Positions 4,455 through 24,774 of a stretch of 28,383 nt of DNA are shown here, in pieces. Made by a program: the position numbers and the translations under genes. Position 1 is the first letter of the stretch. Each line of letters begins with the position of its first letter. The notes below the pieces were generated by a model. That model worked only from the letters and a program-made list of their open reading frames with translations. It did no database searches and was not told where the DNA came from. The DNA is from a virus, in the IMG/VR virus record IMGVR_UViG_3300043119_000867, positions 1 to 28,383 of that record; one strand, given 5' to 3'.

Positions 4455-5311
4455 AATACCCGCGCATCGCTTCCCATCTCTACTCAGCGCCTTGGCAGAT
4501 TCTTCCCGCCAAGTTTCAGGAAATCACTGTTGCTTTTGAGTCGGCGCGCGGTGCCACCGGCTCCACGCCGGAAATGGCTGCTTCTGATCCGGTGGGGCCT
4601 ATCGGTTACGATTGGATTGAAGACAGGGTGAAGCTCCTGCACCCTCAAGTGGAAACCTTCGGCCCCGTTGCCCTTGCCCGCGTGCACGGTGTCACTGGCC
4701 GTCGCCTCTCACAGCTCGCCATGCAGTGCGGAGGTTTCGATACCGGCCTATTCGAGCAGCAGCTGGAAAACATCCGGGACGATGACAGCATCCGCACCCT
4801 CGTCATCGACTTCGATACCCCCGGTGGCATGGCGGCCGGCGGCATGGAGACTGCCCAAGCCATCCGAGCCGTGGCGGATTCCGGCAAGCGCGTCATCGGC
4901 TACGCCTCCGGCATGTGTTGCAGTGCGGGATACTTCCTCGCCTGTGCCTGCGATGAATTCCACGCCCACCCCGCCTCCATGGTCGGCAGCGTTTCCACGA
5001 TCTGGGCCATGGTCGATAGCTCCAAGGCATGGGAAAAGAACGGGCTGGAGCTCAAGCTCTTCGCAACCGGTATCTACAAAGCCACCGGCTACCCCGGCAA
5101 GGCCATGACTCCCGAGGAAGAGGCAAACTGCTGGAGCGTGGTCCGTCCGCTCGATGATGAATTCAAAGGCTTCGTCTCCTCCCGCCGTGGCCTGACTCCG
5201 GACCTCATGCAAGGGCAATGGTGGGATGCCAAGTTCGCCCCCGCGAACGTGGTCGATTCTACCTCTTTCCAGAAACTCTCCTCCGTTTTGGAAGCCGCCT
5301 TTCAACTTTGA
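4451..5311 (+). CDS. S49-family prohead protease (lambda gpC-like)
   Basis: A serine protease of the SppA/ClpP fold that matures the prohead. The 286 residues contain the family core: VIDFDTPGGMAAGG (118-131, oxyanion/substrate segment), then YASGMCCSAGYFLA (151-164) with the probable nucleophile Ser158, and FATGIYKATGYPGK (204-217) with the probable catalytic Lys210, giving a Ser-Lys dyad. The ATG at 4451 overlaps the portal stop. Lambda gpC is longer because it includes the nested scaffold (Nu3). Here the protein ends soon after the protease domain, so a nested scaffold is unlikely. A separate scaffold-like gene is found 5 kb downstream at 10421. The following gene begins only 6 nt after this stop. 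Confidence 0.92.
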   Translation: MKYPRIASHLYSAPWQILPAKFQEITVAFESARGATGSTPEMAASDPVGPIGYDWIEDRVKLLHPQVETFGPVALARVHGVTGRRLSQLAMQCGGFDTGLFEQQLENIRDDDSIRTLVIDFDTPGGMAAGGMETAQAIRAVADSGKRVIGYASGMCCSAGYFLACACDEFHAHPASMVGSVSTIWAMVDSSKAWEKNGLELKLFATGIYKATGYPGKAMTPEEEANCWSVVRPLDDEFKGFVSSRRGLTPDLMQGQWWDAKFAPANVVDSTSFQKLSSVLEAAFQL

Positions 5312-14397: not shown

Positions 14398-14799
14398 ATG
14401 CCAGTCGAAGCCATCATCAAACACGGGAACCTCCCCGGAACGGAAAGCCTAGTGGACGAGCCAGACATGCTGGTTCAAAGCCTCTCCATCAAAGCCGAGC
14501 GGGATTCAAAAATGTTCAAGGGTGCCAACAAGGCCACCCAAGGCGTTTTGGAAACTGATCCGAAGCTCACCTTCGAGTTCAAAGCCATCATTTCCGAGTT
14601 TGCGGGTTTGTCCGATCAGCATCCCGGGACCGCTGTGGCGGAACTTGCCAACTTCTCAGCGGCCATCCACGGGTTCGATCCCGAGGAAGGCACGATGATC
14701 TACAAAGATCCATCCCGTGATCTGGACAACGAAAATCCTGACATGGTGAATTTCAGCGTCCTTCATCTGCCCTTCGTCGAGCCAGCTGTGGCCCCCTAA
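14398..14799 (+). CDS. Major tail (tube) protein candidate
   Basis: A 133-residue protein between the tail-terminator-like gene and the chaperone region. The sequence starts MPVEAIIKHGNLPGTESLVD and continues with strands and loops (QSLSIKAERDSKMFKGANK, LTFEFKAIISEFAGL), then ends in beta-rich segments (MVNFSVLHLPF). Small beta-rich proteins here are usually tail tube subunits. Its own initiation region, with TTGACA at 14376-14381 and 16 nt to ATG, would fit strong separate expression. Known tube proteins are often 130-200 residues. The assignment is inferred from location and composition. Confidence 0.55.
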   Translation: MPVEAIIKHGNLPGTESLVDEPDMLVQSLSIKAERDSKMFKGANKATQGVLETDPKLTFEFKAIISEFAGLSDQHPGTAVAELANFSAAIHGFDPEEGTMIYKDPSRDLDNENPDMVNFSVLHLPFVEPAVAP

Positions 14800-14835: not shown

Positions 14836-15591
14836 ATGTCGGAACAATATACCCTTACCCGCGACACCAGGCTCGCAGCAGCCCTTGGCACTTTGGGCGT
14901 TCCCATCGAAATCCGGAAAAACCGGGATGCGCAAAGCGGCAAAGTCCTGTATATGTATCACCTTGGCTTGCGGTCCCTCTGCCGCCGCCACGATGCCCGC
15001 CAGCTCAAAACGCGCATTGGCAATGGACGGCTGGAGCGCGAAAACCCCACCCACGAAGTCCTCACCGCCCTGCGCGCCATGATCAACCGTGAGCGCCTGC
15101 TGGATTTCCAGAACAAGGGCGTTTTTATGCGGTTAGATTCCGTGCCGGGCACCAGCCTGTGGCAATACGTGCCAGGTGATACCGGGCTGCCTGGCAGGGC
15201 CGGATCCAAGGAGTTGATCGAAACCAGCGACATCAAGCTGGTGTGTGCCTTGGCCGTGGTGGGAGTGCCCTTGCTGGCGATGGATGGCGTGCGATCCGAT
15301 TTCCGTTACTTCCTCCCGCGTCATGGATTGCCCAAGCCCGATGGCAGTCCACCCGCCGACGCGCTGAAGCTCATGCAGGCTTGGCGGACATCACGCGATG
15401 CGATGCCGCCCGATTGCCCGTTCGCGCAAGCCATGTGGGGGCTTGTCAACCGTGAGCGGCTGGTCAACGCGCTCAATGCGGAAATCGAAACCATTCTCCT
15501 CCGGAAATACCGCAGCCAGAAAAGTGCTTTGGTTCGGGCAGATGCCACCGATGCGGCGTTCGACAAAGTGAAGGAGCATTTCGACCAGTAG
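14836..15591 (+). CDS. Unknown tail-module protein with an internal domain duplication
   Basis: A 251-residue protein of unknown function between the tail tube and chaperone genes. It contains two related halves. The first has TRDTRLAAALGTLGVPIEI (8-26), then YHLGL, and ends AMINRERLL (about 81-89). The second has TSDIKLVCALAVVGVPLLA (about 129-147), then FRYFLPRHGL, and ends WGLVNRERLVNALN. Shared features are the ALxxxGVP block, the Y/F-x-L-x-x-x-G-L segment and the xxxNRERL end. The protein may bind two equivalent partners, or be an accessory tail or DNA-end factor. No signal peptide or membrane segment is present. The start at 14836 has no Shine-Dalgarno. Confidence 0.65.
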   Translation: MSEQYTLTRDTRLAAALGTLGVPIEIRKNRDAQSGKVLYMYHLGLRSLCRRHDARQLKTRIGNGRLERENPTHEVLTALRAMINRERLLDFQNKGVFMRLDSVPGTSLWQYVPGDTGLPGRAGSKELIETSDIKLVCALAVVGVPLLAMDGVRSDFRYFLPRHGLPKPDGSPPADALKLMQAWRTSRDAMPPDCPFAQAMWGLVNRERLVNALNAEIETILLRKYRSQKSALVRADATDAAFDKVKEHFDQ

Positions 15592-15619: not shown

Positions 15620-16132
15620 ATGAAGGCAAAAAACTTAGTCCATCTCGACACCCCAGACGACGCTTTGCAAGACAGCGCGGCCGGTTCCAAGGCGCAGCCT
15701 CCCAAGCGGCAAAAAGACGTTCATGACTTCGCGCATGAGGAGCGGCGGCAAGAGGCCTTTGAATCCGAGTATTTTTGGCGTGAGCAAGCGCTGCATGGTT
15801 TTTCCGTTTCACGGGAAGGCTTGTTCGGGCAGCTGCGGCTGGCGATGGGTGCGCCTGCTCTGCGTTTGTGCCTGGCAGATCCGGATGCCTTTGCCGCCGA
15901 TGCCCAGCGCATTCTTTTCCTCTGCGCCCATCCGCCGGAAGTGTGGAACCGGCTCCGCGCGGACATGGCGACTTTGCAAAGTGCCGTGGATGCCTGGACG
16001 GATAAAAACATCAGCGTTTCCGAGAAGCTTTCATCCGAGACTCTGGCCATGCGGATCTGGTTGGCTGCTCAAGAAAACCGCCATGAGCCCGCTCCTACCT
16101 CCGCCCCTCACGGCGATGATTTGGGAAACTAG
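15620..16132 (+). CDS. Tail assembly chaperone G-like protein
   Basis: A 170-residue, helix-rich acidic/alanine protein located immediately before the tape measure region, where lambda gpG is encoded. It starts MKAKNLVHLDTPDDALQDSA and has a helical middle (FGQLRLAMGAPALRLC, DPDAFAADAQRILFLCAHPP). Its final codons TTG GGA AAC TAG contain a canonical slippery heptamer, followed by a second short frame at 16135. This reproduces the G/GT chaperone pair of lambda, in which G alone and a -1 frameshifted G-T fusion cooperate to load the tape measure protein with tube subunits. The assignment is strong from gene order plus the frameshift signal, since sequence alone would be weak. Confidence 0.8.
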   Translation: MKAKNLVHLDTPDDALQDSAAGSKAQPPKRQKDVHDFAHEERRQEAFESEYFWREQALHGFSVSREGLFGQLRLAMGAPALRLCLADPDAFAADAQRILFLCAHPPEVWNRLRADMATLQSAVDAWTDKNISVSEKLSSETLAMRIWLAAQENRHEPAPTSAPHGDDLGN

Positions 16133-16185
16133 CCATGCCAGTCTGGGAGGCCCAATATGTGTTGGTGATCGCTTCCAAGACTGGC
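16123..16185 (+). promoter_or_regulatory. Frameshift signal: slippery heptamer plus stem-loop
   Basis: GGGAAAC at 16123-16129 is read as xxG GGA AAC in the upstream frame, the X XXY YYZ form. After a 7-nt spacer (16130-16136, containing the TAG stop), GCCAGTCT (16137-16144) pairs perfectly with AGACTGGC (16178-16185). GGGAG (16145-16149) then pairs with CTTCC (16172-16176) across one bulged A. Together these give a 13-bp stem at typical frameshift spacing. Confidence 0.8.
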
Positions 16186-16371
16186 TGGACCGAGCGTTTC
16201 ATCCGGCACGAACTGCCGCTCTCCCGCGGCTATGCCTACTACCACGCCGCGCGCGTGCTGGAGGGCGAGCGGTGCCGCTGGCCGGGGGTAAAGTCCTCAG
16301 CTGCCAAGTGGGTGGACAGCGTGAAGCAATGGGCGCGGGGAATCATCGGTAACAAACGACACCACTCCTGA
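16135..16371 (+). CDS. Tail assembly chaperone T-like extension frame
   Basis: A 78-residue frame, MPVWEAQYVLVIASKTGWTE onward, ending with a basic KQWARGIIGNKRHHS. It lies one frame back from the upstream G-like gene and begins 2 nt after its stop. There is no Shine-Dalgarno before the ATG. It is more likely translated as the C-terminal part of a G-T fusion, through -1 slippage at 16123-16129, than as an independent protein. In lambda the T part contacts the tail tube protein while the G part contacts the tape measure protein. The next gene, the tape measure, starts 3 nt after the stop. Confidence 0.75.
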   Translation: MPVWEAQYVLVIASKTGWTERFIRHELPLSRGYAYYHAARVLEGERCRWPGVKSSAAKWVDSVKQWARGIIGNKRHHS

Positions 16372-16374
16372 ATC

Positions 16375-18702
16375 ATGGCGGAAGTCATTAAAACAATTCT
16401 CACCGCAGACTCCAGCGAACTCGCCGCCGAGTTCGCCAAGGCCTCTGCCGTCGCCCAGAAATACGCAAACGATCGTGCTGCGCAAGGTGGACGAGCTTTG
16501 GCTACGGCCCGGGCGGAAATCGAAGCCTTGCGCTTGGAGGCCGATGGATTTGGCAATCTTGCCGCCAGTATGAGGGCCAGCAACTCTTTGCGTGAGCAGG
16601 CTGTTCGTCTCGCCCAGCAAGCCGGAATCACCGAAGAAAAAGCAAATGCCATTCTTCGTGAAAAACAGCTGTTACAACAGAACATCGCCATCGCCGCTGA
16701 AAGACACGCCGCCGCCGAGGTCGCTGCTGCCCAGCGCTCTGCCCGGCTGAACGCTCCTGGGCGAAATGGTGTATCCCTTCCCGAACTGGCGCTCACCACG
16801 GCAAACTTGCAGGCCATGGAAAAGGGCGCTGCCCGTGCAAATGAGTTGCAACGGAAAATGGAAGGCCTGCGTGGTGGTGGTAGTGGAGCGGCAATGGGTT
16901 TGCTCGCTGTTTCTCAAGCCGCCGAAGATGCTCAGTATGGAATTCGGGGCGTAATCAATAATATTCCGCAGGCAATCATGGCCTTTGGAGGCTTCAGCGC
17001 CGCATCCATGTTTCTTGCTGGTGGTATCTCCATTGCCGCCGTTGCCGCCGTCGCCCTGTATGATCCGATGCGAAAACTGCTAGGATTCATGGATAAGGAG
17101 ATGAACAAGGCGACTTTGAAAAACTGGTCAGAGTCAGTCAAATCGACTGCTAAGGCCATTGCTCAACTTAGGCAAGAATCTGTCTTGGGGCAAAACATGC
17201 TTCGCTTTTCCGATGCTTTGAATGAAAATCTGCGCCAACGGCTTCAGTTAGAAAATGTTCTTTCCGGTTATCTCATTGATCAAGGTGCTGCTCAATCTCG
17301 ACAGCTTGACTATTCGGATCGCATTTATGAGGCCCAGCGCGCCTTGGCGGAGGCGAATGGAAAGTTTATGGCGGCACCTAGTTTGCAGCAGAAGCCCCAA
17401 GCTTTGGAATCAGAATTAGAAAACCGGAAGAAGATTCTTGAAGCTGCTTCAGCTGCTGAAGCAAGCCTTGCGGAGCGAGTAGCCAATGTCTCTGCCGAAA
17501 GTTCTGAAAAATCCATTGCGGCTTCTCAGAAGCTGCTCTTATTGCGTGAAAATCTTGTTACTGTTACTAAAAATCTCGAAGCTGGGCAAAAGGACTTAGA
17601 TGCTGCTCAGAAAAACAAATCCGGCTTTTTGGATACAACTGTGCGAGCAGGTGCTACTTTGATCTCAATGAATCCTATCTCTGGCATTGCTGGAGGGGGC
17701 GTTTACAGCCGCAAAAAAGAAGAAGAGATCGAAGCGGCAACTTTAAAAAACCTTCAAGGAAATCTAGACGCTAGAGAAAAAGTAAAAGTCAAGATTGAGC
17801 AGCAAATTGCGGCTTTGAACAAACAGCGTGAGATTGAATCTACGTCATCTTCCGAAGCCATTGCCGCCGCAAAAGCCAAACTTGATGCTAATCATAAATT
17901 GATGCAGAGTACGGCAGATCAAATCCGCCTGCTTGAAGAGCGTTACCCTATTGAAAAGCAGCTTGCGGATTTAGAAGAGCAGCGCATCAAAGCTTTGGCC
18001 GCAAGAGCTGCCCATGACTTTCAAACAGAACTTTCCATTCAAAACGCGCTGGCGGCAAACGACCAGGAGCGCGTCAAAAGCCTTCAGGAGCAACGTGACA
18101 TCGAAGCGGAAAAAGCATCGATCATGGCCAATCAGAGATCCTTGAGTGATGCTCAAGTTAAAGCCATGGCCAAGCAAATGGTGCAAGCCCGGGCTGCTGC
18201 TGCGGCGGCCAATCAAGAGGCCCAGCGCAATCAGTCCCGGACGGATGTGTTCGGTGATCTTGAGGCCATGAGAATGGAAGCCGCTGGCGACAAAAAAGGT
18301 GCGGACGAGCTTCGCGAGGATCTGCGCATCCGTGAAGAAGCTGTGGCCTTGGCCGAGCGTCTTGGCATCAGCGAAAACCAAGCCACTCTTGTGTTGCGTG
18401 AGCGTGCCAGGCTTCAGAAAGAAATCGATAAGCGGGACGCCGATCCTCAATTTCCCGAGCTCCGCCGGCGCGGAATCCGCAGGCTTGAAAACGGTGCCAA
18501 CGACATGAACGCAGGCAACAACCTGAACACCTGGAAATGGAACATGGCACCCGGGCTGAAATCTAACGAGATCGAACGCCGCAACGCCGCCCGCGCGAAT
18601 CGCCCGCTCAAGCCCTCCGATGACTCTGCAAAAGTGCTTCTCAAATCCGTGAACATCCAAGAGGAGATGCTCAAAATCTGGCAAAAAATCAACGTCGTCT
18701 AA
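16375..18702 (+). CDS. Tail tape measure protein
   Basis: A 775-residue, strongly helical, alanine/glutamate/lysine-rich protein following the G/GT chaperones, the diagnostic place for the tape measure. A hydrophobic stretch at about 196-232 (AIMAFGGFSAASMFLAGGIS, then IAAVAAVALYDP) is the type of membrane-active segment many tape measures use during DNA injection. Much of 250-640 is coiled coil. If extended as alpha-helix at 0.15 nm per residue it would set a tail of roughly 116 nm. A related motif occurs near both ends (about 46-102 and 628-688), each with REEAV-x-LA-x-x-x-GI and LRE. No peptidoglycan hydrolase domain was seen. The start lacks a Shine-Dalgarno. Confidence 0.88.
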   Translation: MAEVIKTILTADSSELAAEFAKASAVAQKYANDRAAQGGRALATARAEIEALRLEADGFGNLAASMRASNSLREQAVRLAQQAGITEEKANAILREKQLLQQNIAIAAERHAAAEVAAAQRSARLNAPGRNGVSLPELALTTANLQAMEKGAARANELQRKMEGLRGGGSGAAMGLLAVSQAAEDAQYGIRGVINNIPQAIMAFGGFSAASMFLAGGISIAAVAAVALYDPMRKLLGFMDKEMNKATLKNWSESVKSTAKAIAQLRQESVLGQNMLRFSDALNENLRQRLQLENVLSGYLIDQGAAQSRQLDYSDRIYEAQRALAEANGKFMAAPSLQQKPQALESELENRKKILEAASAAEASLAERVANVSAESSEKSIAASQKLLLLRENLVTVTKNLEAGQKDLDAAQKNKSGFLDTTVRAGATLISMNPISGIAGGGVYSRKKEEEIEAATLKNLQGNLDAREKVKVKIEQQIAALNKQREIESTSSSEAIAAAKAKLDANHKLMQSTADQIRLLEERYPIEKQLADLEEQRIKALAARAAHDFQTELSIQNALAANDQERVKSLQEQRDIEAEKASIMANQRSLSDAQVKAMAKQMVQARAAAAAANQEAQRNQSRTDVFGDLEAMRMEAAGDKKGADELREDLRIREEAVALAERLGISENQATLVLRERARLQKEIDKRDADPQFPELRRRGIRRLENGANDMNAGNNLNTWKWNMAPGLKSNEIERRNAARANRPLKPSDDSAKVLLKSVNIQEEMLKIWQKINVV

Positions 18703-20767: not shown

Positions 20768-21345
20768 GCGAACTCGAAAAATCTTCAGGAAGCGTTTCCA
20801 GTGCCGAGAGTTCGGAAGGCTCATCGGCATCATCCGCATCAAGCTATTTTTCCTCGCTGAGTTCATCATCGTATGCGCCTGGCGATTCCAGTTCTGAAAG
20901 TTCCTATGATCCGCCGGTGCCTGTTTCCAGTTCTTCAAGCGCAAGTAGCAACGATGACTGCCCGGGTAATCTTTTCTCTTTGACGGTATCCTTGACGTGG
21001 GTGGGAGCATGGGACTGGGATCTTCACTTGAAGACTCCATCCGGTGCCCACATTTACTATGGTGCCTTGTCGGGAGATGGGTTCGAATTGAACCACGATG
21101 CCCACCCGTCTTGCGCGGATGATCCATTCCCTCCGGAAACCATCGAAGGGGTGGGTGCGTGCTACGGAGAGTATCTCGCTTACAAAAATCTTTTCTCGAA
21201 TTGTAACAGTCCGGGAGATGCTACGTTCACCGGTTCGATCACGGTGATGGCTCCGGACGGGCTGATGGTGGATGGCGTCTTCCGGGCCGCTGGAGCAGTG
21301 GTGGGAATCACCAACGACTTTCCATTTTTGATAGAAAGACCATGA
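20764..21345 (+). CDS. Serine-rich tail-tip protein 2 with DUF2135/YfaP-like domain
   Basis: A 193-residue protein. The first 62 residues are again serine-rich (SSGSVSSAESSEGSSASSAS and SSSSSASS). The domain at about 71-190 starts SLTVSLTWVGAWDWDLHLKT, continues PSGAHIYYG, and later has NHDAHPSCADDP and GEYLAYKNLF. The W-x-x-x-x-D-x-D-LH-x-x-x-PSG-x-x-IYYG pattern, with a D-x-D pair and a later NHDA, resembles DUF2135/YfaP-like beta-sandwich domains. These occur in surface and secreted proteins and may bind metal or glycan. Start and stop both use ATGA overlaps with neighbours, so the three genes form one coupled unit. It is probably exposed on the tail tip. Confidence 0.65.
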   Translation: MSELEKSSGSVSSAESSEGSSASSASSYFSSLSSSSYAPGDSSSESSYDPPVPVSSSSSASSNDDCPGNLFSLTVSLTWVGAWDWDLHLKTPSGAHIYYGALSGDGFELNHDAHPSCADDPFPPETIEGVGACYGEYLAYKNLFSNCNSPGDATFTGSITVMAPDGLMVDGVFRAAGAVVGITNDFPFLIERP

Positions 21346-23654
21346 ACGAATCCATGATAGACAACGGGCCGGAACTATGGCGTGAGCTTCACCACTTCCC
21401 GAGCACTTGGGATGGTGATCCGGTCAAGGCCGAGCAATTCCTATCAGGATTCTCCGCCCGCATCACTTGCTGTAAATGCCGGAAGTGCTGGGAAGACATG
21501 GTGATGAATCACCCGATGCCGCTGTCTTCAGAAGCGGTGTTCTGGTGGACGGTAAAACTTCACAACATGGTCAATTCGAAACTTGGCAAGCTTTTGTTCA
21601 CCTCCGAGCAGGCGCAGGCTCTTTACCCATCTCCACCGCCATCGGTTCCGATCTGTATTCCCATTCATCACAAAGGAGGGAAGTTCAAAGATAACACCGA
21701 GTTGCGATATACTTTGAGATCCATCGAAAAGCATTTTCAGGGAGCTTGCCAAGTGTGGCTGGTTTGTAAAAAGATGCCTGAAGGGTTTGAGGGCTGTCAT
21801 CATCTGTTCGATGGCGGCAAGGGGTTGAAAACCGCTCTGCGAATCACCTCAGAAAAACACCCCGATGGCTTCTTCTGGTGGTATGATGATTCGGTGTTGC
21901 TGCTTCCTCAGACCGTGGAGGATTTGAAAACCACGATTGCCAGTCGTCGGTGGTCAAACGCGCAGACGGGCTGGGCGCGGCAGTTGACGAAGATCAAAGA
22001 GCGGCTGGAAGCGGAAGGGTATGTGGCTCACGATTACTCCAGACCTCACGGACCTTACTGGTTCGACAAGGGAATGGTCGATGAGGGCTTCGCGGATTGG
22101 CCGAACATGGCCGCCAAGTTTCCATGGGAATCATGGATACTTTCCAAGCGCGATTGGCCACGCCGTCACGGCAACTACAAGCAGTATTATGGTGCTTTCA
22201 AATCACTTCCGGGAGATCGTGACGTGTTGCTGAATTTTTGTGATGGTGGGTTTACTCCGGAGTTGAAATCGCTGCTGGAAGAGTTTTACCCGAAGCGTTC
22301 GACATTCGAAACCGGAACTGCAATCCGTCCGAAGATCCAAGTTCACACCATCCGTTTCGGGGAGAAATGGTGGCTGCAACTTTGCTCTCCCACGCTGGAT
22401 TCATGGTGCAAGCGGCACGGCCATCCGCTCAAGATCTGGACGAGCGAAAATATCAATCCCGACTATCCGAACTCGAAATTCTGTCAGATCGATATGCTGC
22501 GCGATTTTGTGGAAAGCGGTGATGATTGGATGATCTATGTCGATGCCGATGTGTATGTGGATGAGTTGGCTCCAGCGCATCCAGTTCTTTCGCCCGGTTT
22601 CTGGATTCGGGAGGATCTGCCAGGAGCGGGGCCTAGAGATTTCGGAAGGTGGCTGCGTAAGCACAAGAAAAGTTCACCGGGCTGGGCCTATCGAAACGCG
22701 GGCGTGTGGATGTGTGATCGTAAATCAGCGCAAACGCTTTTGGAAACCATCAGCCCGCCTTATCTCGTCGGCTGCATGGAGCAGCATCAATGGAACTGGT
22801 GGCTTTCTCAGTCGGCGGCCAAGGGCTTGCATGTCGGTTTTCTTGATGGGGCGTGGAATTCATGGGCGTTTGAAAACAAGAAAGGGGCATTCTATCACAT
22901 CGCCGGAAAGAAGAAATCGCAGCGGGTGGAAATGTTTCGCGCCAATGGCCTGATCCCTCTGGATCCTCCTCTGCAAGCGGTGGCTGAGATTCCCCGAGTG
23001 TTCTACTTTGAGCCCTATCGTTTTGCGAAATGTGATTCGATGATGGCCATGGATGAGATGCACATTCAGCTTTTGTTTTTGGCGGCCACTCTTGAAACAA
23101 CTCGGGAAAAATCGAAAAGAGTGGCTGTGGAAATCGGCTCATACCGAGGGGCTTCCACGGCTGCATTGATCGAAGCACTCAACCAAGGATATTTCGGGCA
23201 TCTGCATGTGATCGAAATCAAGCCCACCGAGACACTTCGCAAAATTCTAGCGATGGCCAAGGATTCTTCCCGAGTCACTCTTCACACTCAGGCATCTTGG
23301 GATCTGGATATCACTGCTGCGGATTTCGTGTTCATCGATGGTGATCACAAATGGCCTGCGGTGGCGGATACCCTCCGGGCAATTACCTGGGGCGCTGAAG
23401 TGATCGCCATGCACGATAGTGAGTCATGGCCGCAAATCCCCGGCACTTGGGGGGCGAAGCTGGCGGCAAAGTGCCTGCGAGAGATGCCAGCAAGGACTGT
23501 GTTCGAAGATTGCCAACTTCGCGGAGGAATGCAGACGCAACGCGGCTTCATCGTTTCAGCGAGTTCGGAAATCAACGTCACTCCGCTTGAAGATTTTTTG
23601 AAGCTGGGATCTTCCTCTTCATCGCAAGCCTCTTTTGCAACACGCTTGCCGTAG
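21342..23654 (+). CDS. Four-part fusion: Erv/ALR-like domain, two glycosyltransferase-like domains, methyltransferase
   Basis: A 770-residue putative tail-glycan enzyme. Residues 12-83 resemble an Erv/ALR thiol oxidase fold: LWRELHHFPSTW, CKCRKC (CxxC at 46-49) and KLHNMVNSKLGK (72-83, the HN-x-VN-x-x-LGK signature). Residues about 102-320 look like a Stealth-type or related sugar-phosphate transferase (IPIHHKGG, LRYTLRSIEKHF, WYDDSVLLLPQ with Asp182/183). Residues about 330-540 contain a GT-A-like core (MIYVDADVYVDE, DxD at 401-403; FCQIDMLRDF; NAGVWMCDR). Residues about 550-745 are a class I methyltransferase of family-24 type (AVEIGSYRGASTAALIEAL; FVFIDGDHKW; VIAMHDS). It is coupled by ATGA overlap to the serine-rich tail genes. 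Its 3' end overlaps the convergent integrase by 77 nt. The domain calls are by eye. Confidence 0.72.
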   Translation: MNESMIDNGPELWRELHHFPSTWDGDPVKAEQFLSGFSARITCCKCRKCWEDMVMNHPMPLSSEAVFWWTVKLHNMVNSKLGKLLFTSEQAQALYPSPPPSVPICIPIHHKGGKFKDNTELRYTLRSIEKHFQGACQVWLVCKKMPEGFEGCHHLFDGGKGLKTALRITSEKHPDGFFWWYDDSVLLLPQTVEDLKTTIASRRWSNAQTGWARQLTKIKERLEAEGYVAHDYSRPHGPYWFDKGMVDEGFADWPNMAAKFPWESWILSKRDWPRRHGNYKQYYGAFKSLPGDRDVLLNFCDGGFTPELKSLLEEFYPKRSTFETGTAIRPKIQVHTIRFGEKWWLQLCSPTLDSWCKRHGHPLKIWTSENINPDYPNSKFCQIDMLRDFVESGDDWMIYVDADVYVDELAPAHPVLSPGFWIREDLPGAGPRDFGRWLRKHKKSSPGWAYRNAGVWMCDRKSAQTLLETISPPYLVGCMEQHQWNWWLSQSAAKGLHVGFLDGAWNSWAFENKKGAFYHIAGKKKSQRVEMFRANGLIPLDPPLQAVAEIPRVFYFEPYRFAKCDSMMAMDEMHIQLLFLAATLETTREKSKRVAVEIGSYRGASTAALIEALNQGYFGHLHVIEIKPTETLRKILAMAKDSSRVTLHTQASWDLDITAADFVFIDGDHKWPAVADTLRAITWGAEVIAMHDSESWPQIPGTWGAKLAAKCLREMPARTVFEDCQLRGGMQTQRGFIVSASSEINVTPLEDFLKLGSSSSSQASFATRLP

Positions 23655-24774
23655 CTCTTCCCGTTAGGAATCCCACCTCGGCATCGGGTGCCGTTCCTAA
23701 CATTGCCAATTCCTTCGCGCTCCAGGATCGTCCCGCAACCGCTTTCCAATCTCCGGGCACCGCGGCTTCCAGCGCTGTCATCCATTTCTGCCATTGCCCG
23801 GGCGGGATCGGGCGTTTGTAGCTCGCACGGATTTCCGATGGGGAATTTCCGCTTTCCTCCGCCACTCGGCCAATGTCGTGGATTTCCTGCAACCGGTAGG
23901 TGATCCGTGAGTGGCGCAAGACATCGATGGTCCATTTCAGCCCCAGCCTTCTGGCGATCTCAGAAACCTCATTCTGCGCCTTCAGGCGGCAAATGTGGCC
24001 CTGCTTCCCCGCCCGCTTGCGTGACGCGTCCCTGCAAGCCACCAGCAGCCGCATGACGTGATCCGGCACCGGGAGCCATCGCTCTGCCGCCACCTTCCGC
24101 GCCACCTCCGCGCGGACATGCAGCAAGCCTTGGGCTTCGTCCAGATCGCTCCACAAAAGCCGCTGGCACTCAAACGGCCGGCAGCCGAGCCAGCCTGCGA
24201 CGATGAGATAGGCCAGATGATGCGGGGCCTTTTCCGATACTGCCGCCAGCAATGCCCGCCCCGCTTCTGGCGTGAAAATTTCAGGGGCTTTCTTGTCAGG
24301 CTTTTTCCGAGTCACATTGGAGATCGGAGGAGGCGTGGCGCGTGGCCATCGGTGCCCGCGCACCGCCCAGTTGAAAAACAACGTCCAGTAAGAATGTCGG
24401 TTTGCCATCGTCCGCTTTCCCGCACTGCCCCGGGCAATGTGACTTTCCAGAAGTTCCGCCGTCACCTCCTCCAGCAACACCGCTCCATGTGCCCGGGCAA
24501 ACGCAGTTAGTTCCGATTTCGGCCCTCGAACCGTGATGGTCGGGTGCTTGCGCTCATACTCCTTCAGGAACTCAACCACGGCCTTTGCCATCGTCACCCG
24601 TTCCATTTCTGCCCCGCCCTGCGCCATGAACCACCGCGCCGCCTCTGCCAGCCGCCCGGCATCCTTGGACACCTTCAAAGCCGCCTCCAAGTGCGAGAGG
24701 AGCGCCGGAACATTCTCCGCGCTTCCTGCCAGCCTCCTGAGCCATTCCAGCTGCTCCTTCGCCGCCGGAGTCAC
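23578..24774 (-). CDS. int: Tyrosine recombinase integrase (core-binding and catalytic parts)
   Basis: Site-specific recombinase that would integrate the phage at a tmRNA/tRNA-type site. The 398-residue frame carries the catalytic residues: Arg199 in GCRPFE, Lys227 (ARKVA), His288 and Arg290 in DVLRHSRIT, Asn310 in the ESGNSPSEIR block (often His or Trp), and the nucleophile Tyr319 in ASYKRP. The core-binding domain lies around 60-140 (AKAVVEFLKEYE, SYWTLFFNWAVR). The frame begins at a GTG (24774), but a matching N-terminal arm-binding segment lies just upstream in a different frame, separated by a run of seven G on this strand. So the intact protein would be about 463 residues if one G were absent. 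Its 3' end overlaps the convergent tail glycosyltransferase gene. Confidence 0.9.
   Translation of the reverse strand: MTPAAKEQLEWLRRLAGSAENVPALLSHLEAALKVSKDAGRLAEAARWFMAQGGAEMERVTMAKAVVEFLKEYERKHPTITVRGPKSELTAFARAHGAVLLEEVTAELLESHIARGSAGKRTMANRHSYWTLFFNWAVRGHRWPRATPPPISNVTRKKPDKKAPEIFTPEAGRALLAAVSEKAPHHLAYLIVAGWLGCRPFECQRLLWSDLDEAQGLLHVRAEVARKVAAERWLPVPDHVMRLLVACRDASRKRAGKQGHICRLKAQNEVSEIARRLGLKWTIDVLRHSRITYRLQEIHDIGRVAEESGNSPSEIRASYKRPIPPGQWQKWMTALEAAVPGDWKAVAGRSWSAKELAMLGTAPDAEVGFLTGRATASVLQKRLAMKRKIPASKNLQAE

Follow-up and report, generated by a model that had tools for sequence, protein, structure and literature searches.

Bacteriophage lambda uses the slippery heptamer GGGAAAG at its G/T junction. 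The -1 G/GT frameshift of lambda and its relatives has been described earlier (Levin 1993; Xu, Hendrix, Duda 2004; reviewed in PMC5009743), and such frameshifts are widely conserved among long-tailed phages (PMC5009743). In E. coli, ribosomes shift far less readily on A_AAA_AAC than on A_AAA_AAG (PMC5009743), and in other phage sets the mean distance from the site to the stop is 26-36 nt (PMC10885494). By E. coli standards an AAC ending is uncommon, and a first-pass annotation of the DNA studied here had called it less usual, though there are predicted precedents at the same junction: 1) GGGAAAC in Caulobacter phage Colossus and AAAAAAC in Caulobacter phage phiCbK (PMC3556154); 2) GGGAAAC or AAAAAAC in the haloviruses HCTV-1 and HCTV-2 (PMC5009743); 3) GGGAAAC immediately before a TGA in gp18/gp19 of Burkholderia phage KL1 (PMC3483164). 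In light of these precedents, the AAC ending and the adjacent stop have each been seen before when taken singly.

The window, by which we mean the whole stretch of DNA that was analyzed, comprises 28,383 nucleotides (positions 1 to 28,383 of the IMG/VR virus record IMGVR_UViG_3300043119_000867). Its matches to terminase, portal and, more weakly, the major head protein indicate that it belongs to a tailed phage. Comparative sequence evidence makes it very probable that a tail assembly chaperone gene in the window is divided into two halves by a programmed -1 ribosomal frameshift site, where ribosomes appear to make a little of a longer tail-building helper protein by slipping back one base before the stop. 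The site is another case within the known class of G/GT tail-chaperone frameshifts. What is uncommon in its T family is that an A_AAC site abutting the stop is nearly universal and that the covarying hairpin comes in two alternative forms. The relevant features are the following:

14398..14799, plus strand: 133-aa protein, a syntenic tail gene, probable tail tube by position only (58% identical to L007:2199-2600, same position)
14836..15591, plus strand: 251-aa protein just upstream of G, syntenic (44% identical to L007:2674-3435)
15620..16132, plus strand: ORF G, predicted pre-frameshift tail assembly chaperone, 170 aa, C-terminus ...HGDDLGN*; homologues aligned
16120..16132, plus strand: 13-nt region in which G and T are both open, bounded by TGA 16117-16119 and TAG 16130-16132
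16123..16129, plus strand: slippery heptamer G_GGA_AAC, kept in all homologues as [GGG/CCC/AAA]AAA[C/G/A]
16130..16132, plus strand: 0-frame stop TAG, abutting the heptamer in 24/31 clusters, with TAG, TAA and TGA all in use
16130..16136, plus strand: 7-nt spacer TAGCCAT, from sequence and fold
16137..16144, plus strand: 5' arm of the stem, GCCAGTCT, from fold and covariation
16178..16185, plus strand: 3' arm of the stem, AGACTGGC, the class I partner, from fold and covariation
16129..16371, plus strand: T domain as it would be read after the -1 shift, LA-MPVW..., 80 aa, from frame reading; ATG 16135 not conserved
16375..18702, plus strand: tape measure protein, 775 aa, matching L007 ORF 4227-6473 (34% over 124 aa, E 3e-12), in the same place right after T

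Examination of the reading frames reveals that GGGAAAC (16123-16129) is read in the 0 frame as ttG GGA AAC TAG, in the X XXY YYZ phase, and that the TAG adjoins it without a gap and lies inside the spacer. ORF T, counted from its ATG, occupies 16135-16371 (78 aa) in the -1 frame relative to G, and this frame opens at 16120, right behind the TGA. Since it is open only from there, a -1 shift giving a fusion is confined to 16120-16132, an interval that includes the heptamer; the predicted product reads ...GDDLGN-LA-MPVWEAQY... across the joint. This layout agrees with what the first-pass annotation had claimed, namely an in-phase GGGAAAC before the stop, a 7-nt spacer with the stop inside it, and a -1 frame leading into the ORF at 16135 through a DDLGN-LA-MPVW joint. 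The heptamer alone is not rare, with nine occurrences of GGGAAAC in the window against 5.3 expected; an in-phase XXXYYYZ abutting the stop is seen at 5 of 446 other ORF ends (long ORFs of the same loci as the homologues).

The arrangement is of the lambda type: the tape measure gene is preceded by two ORFs, the second of them in the -1 frame. The likeness to lambda extends to the overlap of the two ORFs just upstream of the tape measure gene, to a predicted -1 shift near the end of G on an X_XXY_YYZ site, and to T being without a start of its own in most relatives. In contrast to lambda, the site ends in AAC rather than AAG, the stop abuts the heptamer, and a strong covarying hairpin follows at 7 nt. 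In Colossus and phiCbK (PMC3556154) and in HCTV-1, -2 and -5 (PMC5009743) the same slip heptamers lie at a G/T junction ahead of the tape measure gene, a comparison that covers heptamer and position. The G/T proteins of Colossus, phiCbK and the HCTV viruses were not recovered as relatives of the window T family. KL1 (PMC3483164) likewise has a predicted GGGAAAC abutting the stop of G beside tail genes; it differs in that the stop is TGA, one gene separates the pair from the tape measure gene, and it is a single predicted case.

The gene order of the syntenic relative L007 (134-aa protein, 254-aa protein, G, T and tape measure) is that of the window. Its ORF 4227-6473 hits the PHROG family of tail length tape measure proteins (phrog_9483, E 2e-16), and strong profile matches among the queries from the G/T neighborhoods were obtained for this protein only. 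Against Pfam and PHROGs profiles the 133-aa and 251-aa proteins had no family match, and G and T had no informative match and no curated chaperone profile; the window G and T proteins are without detectable sequence similarity to described chaperones. AlphaFold2 models of G and T are helical, that of G having an all-helical core (mean pLDDT 78). Fold searches gave weak matches, including N15 GT in fifth place (E 0.75) and a tape measure chaperone of Burkholderia phage Mica (E 3.6); a Foldseek search of G against the PDB gave no match. Rfam and tRNA scans of the whole window returned nothing. Elsewhere, the structural module ends in a 770-aa ORF (21342-23654) that by eye resembles a sugar- or methyl-transferase type protein, and a 398-aa ORF on the minus strand (23578-24774) looks by eye like a tyrosine recombinase/integrase, which suggests a temperate phage.

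Homologues of T were gathered from IMG/VR and GTDB genomes, giving 85 loci (80 viral and five contigs of Verrucomicrobiota MAGs) that were reduced to 31 T clusters of less than 80% identity. Relatives were recovered with T alone and with T alignments as queries; viral contigs searched with single sequences, of G or of the 251-aa protein ahead of it, gave no matches, nor did a first scan of genome contigs, and a wider T profile then yielded the five MAG contigs. From these contigs, two of which are Prosthecobacter, together with Akkermansia phage Moulinsart, the host is probably a member of Verrucomicrobiota. All five first-round relatives (T 62-66% identical) carry G GGA AAC TAG at the same position, and an in-phase XXXYYYZ lies inside the G/T overlap in 85/85 loci. 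Over the 31 clusters the heptamer is GGGAAAC in 13, CCCAAAC in 11, AAAAAAC in three, GGGAAAG in two, and GGGAAAA and CCCAAAA in one each, i.e. [GGG/CCC/AAA]AAAC in 27/31. The first triplet encodes Gly, Pro or Lys depending on the cluster and is always a homotriplet; that the residue varies while the homotriplet is kept suggests that slippage, and not the protein, is what is constrained. The stop is adjacent to the heptamer in 24 clusters, one codon further on in four and at 18-33 nt in three, and it is TAG in 16, TAA in 10 and TGA in five. A quick T tree with several open nodes requires at least six changes of the first triplet and at least 11 of the stop codon. The first-pass annotation had named conservation of heptamer and stem in relatives as a check, and a heptamer not conserved in close relatives as counting against its reading. 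The outcome is the opposite: an in-phase heptamer is seen in every locus, and the stem covaries (see below).

These data bear on two further ways of accounting for the frame change. If G and T were one gene split by an indel, whether through sequencing error or as a pseudogene, only the frame change itself would speak for it; the change falls at the identical place in 31 diverged clusters with differing stops, from many independent metagenomes and the sequenced Moulinsart, and we regard this reading as already refuted by conservation. Slippage of RNA polymerase on a run, instead of ribosomal frameshifting, would suit those relatives that have AAAAAA at the site; however, GGGAAAC and CCCAAAC hold runs of three only, and a selected base-paired hairpin lies downstream at the 7-nt spacing typical of ribosomal sites, leaving polymerase slippage next to no likelihood.

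The stop data are also relevant to a variant of the best explanation, compatible with the main reading, in which a stop waiting in the A site would let the E- and P-site tRNAs slip. The abutting stop of 24/31 clusters favors it, as this adjacency is kept though stop identity varies and is unlike the mean of 26-36 nt in other phage sets (PMC10885494). However, all three stops are used and no release factor is singled out, making dependence on a single release factor unlikely; moreover, in 7/31 clusters a heptamer of the same type is separated from the stop by 3-33 nt, and the codon geometry fits classical simultaneous slippage equally well. We consider this stop-dependent shift unlikely. If it were true, the stop would be part of the signal, and the ratio of gpG to gpGT, and hence tail assembly, would be set by the termination rate of the host. 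Separately, a host lacking queuosine in tRNA-Asn as the cause of a slippery AAC is unsupported as far as tested, with TGT (PF01702) present in 5/5 host MAGs. The same string GGGAAACTAGC is also present in L022 (8582-8600 of a 102,984-bp viral contig), where it lies between two G/T-like ORFs that appear not to be homologous to those of the window; this may be a case of convergence.

The start codons of T speak to the possibility that it is made separately, without a fusion, by termination and reinitiation at ATG 16135 with GGGA as a weak Shine-Dalgarno sequence. In the window the ATG does lie 2 nt past the stop with GGGA 8 nt upstream; across the family, however, ATG occupies that position in 2/31 clusters and any of ATG, GTG or TTG in 4/31, five of the 31 have no start codon ahead of the conserved TGW motif, and the site is kept elsewhere as CCCAAAC or AAAAAAC, which are not Shine-Dalgarno-like. 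With starts so few or absent, independent initiation cannot be the general route to T, and in the five start-less clusters T would hardly be reachable except from G. Reinitiation in place of a fusion is thus highly improbable.

Immediately beyond the spacer, the 8-bp stem GCCAGTCT/AGACTGGC (16137-16144 with 16178-16185) is perfect and begins 7 nt past the heptamer, within the 5-9 nt expected of -1 frameshift signals generally. For 16130-16190 the minimum free energy comes to -31.6 kcal/mol, shuffled sequences average -17.5 +/- 3.1 (z -4.56), and 0/200 shuffles were as good. The first-pass annotation had described this perfect stem as extended by 5 bp past a bulged A. The inner extension is real, but in the minimum free energy structure it consists of a G.A mismatch followed by 6 bp, and the bulged A with 5 bp is a neighboring register; the choice between the two is ambiguous.

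Comparison across the T clusters revealed two stem classes. In class I, that of the window clade, the arms are encoded by the T codons Pro-Val and Thr-Gly. Two of its variable pairs link third positions of codons in both arms, and one more links the final base of residue 1 with the third position of Gly; among all 153 third-position pairs these take the first three ranks. Over 13 sequences 94% of the class I cells are paired with 19 double changes, and in class II, that of a distant clade, 97.5% are paired with 16 double changes, percentages that lean upward within each set because membership was assigned by fold. The covariation score is 0.508 for class I (0.135 shuffled, at most 0.122 slid) and 0.445 for class II (0.183 shuffled, at most 0.101 slid), where the shuffles leave relatedness in and the slid versions, which retain it as well, score far lower. 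Class II has its 5' arm at the unchanged position and a nearer 3' arm at Leu-Ala codons; the switch of partner was noted in the L058-L113 homologues, 7-44 nt after the heptamer. Neither stem fits the other clade: class I gives 52% paired cells and no covariation in the distant clade, and class II gives 57% paired cells in that of the window. These are therefore two different hairpins. Together the alignments argue strongly for a hairpin conserved by compensatory change, mainly at third codon positions. L052, L056, L059 and L068, with their near relatives, keep the heptamer type and show no clear stem at the usual position; in some of this subgroup the stop comes one codon later or further.

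Akkermansia phage Moulinsart (ON453896.1; L028), listed in PMC10197239, provides a cultured relative. It was induced in a consortium whose Akkermansia strain is Akkermansia muciniphila YL44. It has a homologous T, the equivalent position carries A_AAA_AAC TAG GC, and a class I stem is present; the predicted fusion would have about 152+80 aa and a KN-LA-EPDG joint. It differs in that three genes separate T from the gene annotated as tape measure. Its G/T region (4525-5225) is annotated as two separate hypothetical proteins, WAK79076.1 and WAK79077.1, with no frameshift. The annotated start of T sits inside the T domain, and the frame runs back to the A AAA AAC TAG site.

The conserved heptamer, phase and stop, the covarying hairpin, the lost T starts and the tape-measure synteny support the tail chaperone G/GT reading of the first-pass annotation, and classical, hairpin-stimulated -1 slippage on GGA-AAC is the best reading of these sequences. 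Most ribosomes would read G_GGA_AAC and terminate at the adjoining UAG to give gpG. In a smaller number, which the hairpin beginning 7 nt downstream would detain at the heptamer, the ribosome would slip one base back, from GGA-AAC to GGG-AAA, both tRNAs presumably moving simultaneously, and would continue via CUA-GCC-AUG into T to give gpGT. If lambda is a guide, gpG and gpGT would coat the tape measure protein, with the T domain recruiting the tail tube subunit.

In the open-access literature, which gives weak evidence on such a point, we found no description of a whole family with an AAC site and stop adjacency as the rule, or of a switch of hairpin partner between clades. The present comparison extends the G/GT frameshift, by evidence beyond one motif sighting, to a largely uncultured phage group with links to Verrucomicrobiota, and identifies a cultured Akkermansia phage in which the signal had gone unannotated and is testable. 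It also brings to light a hairpin with a fixed 5' arm and a 3' partner that differs between two clades. Finally, a family with X_XXA_AAC and an abutting stop as the rule would be useful for understanding why AAC works and whether the stop takes part.
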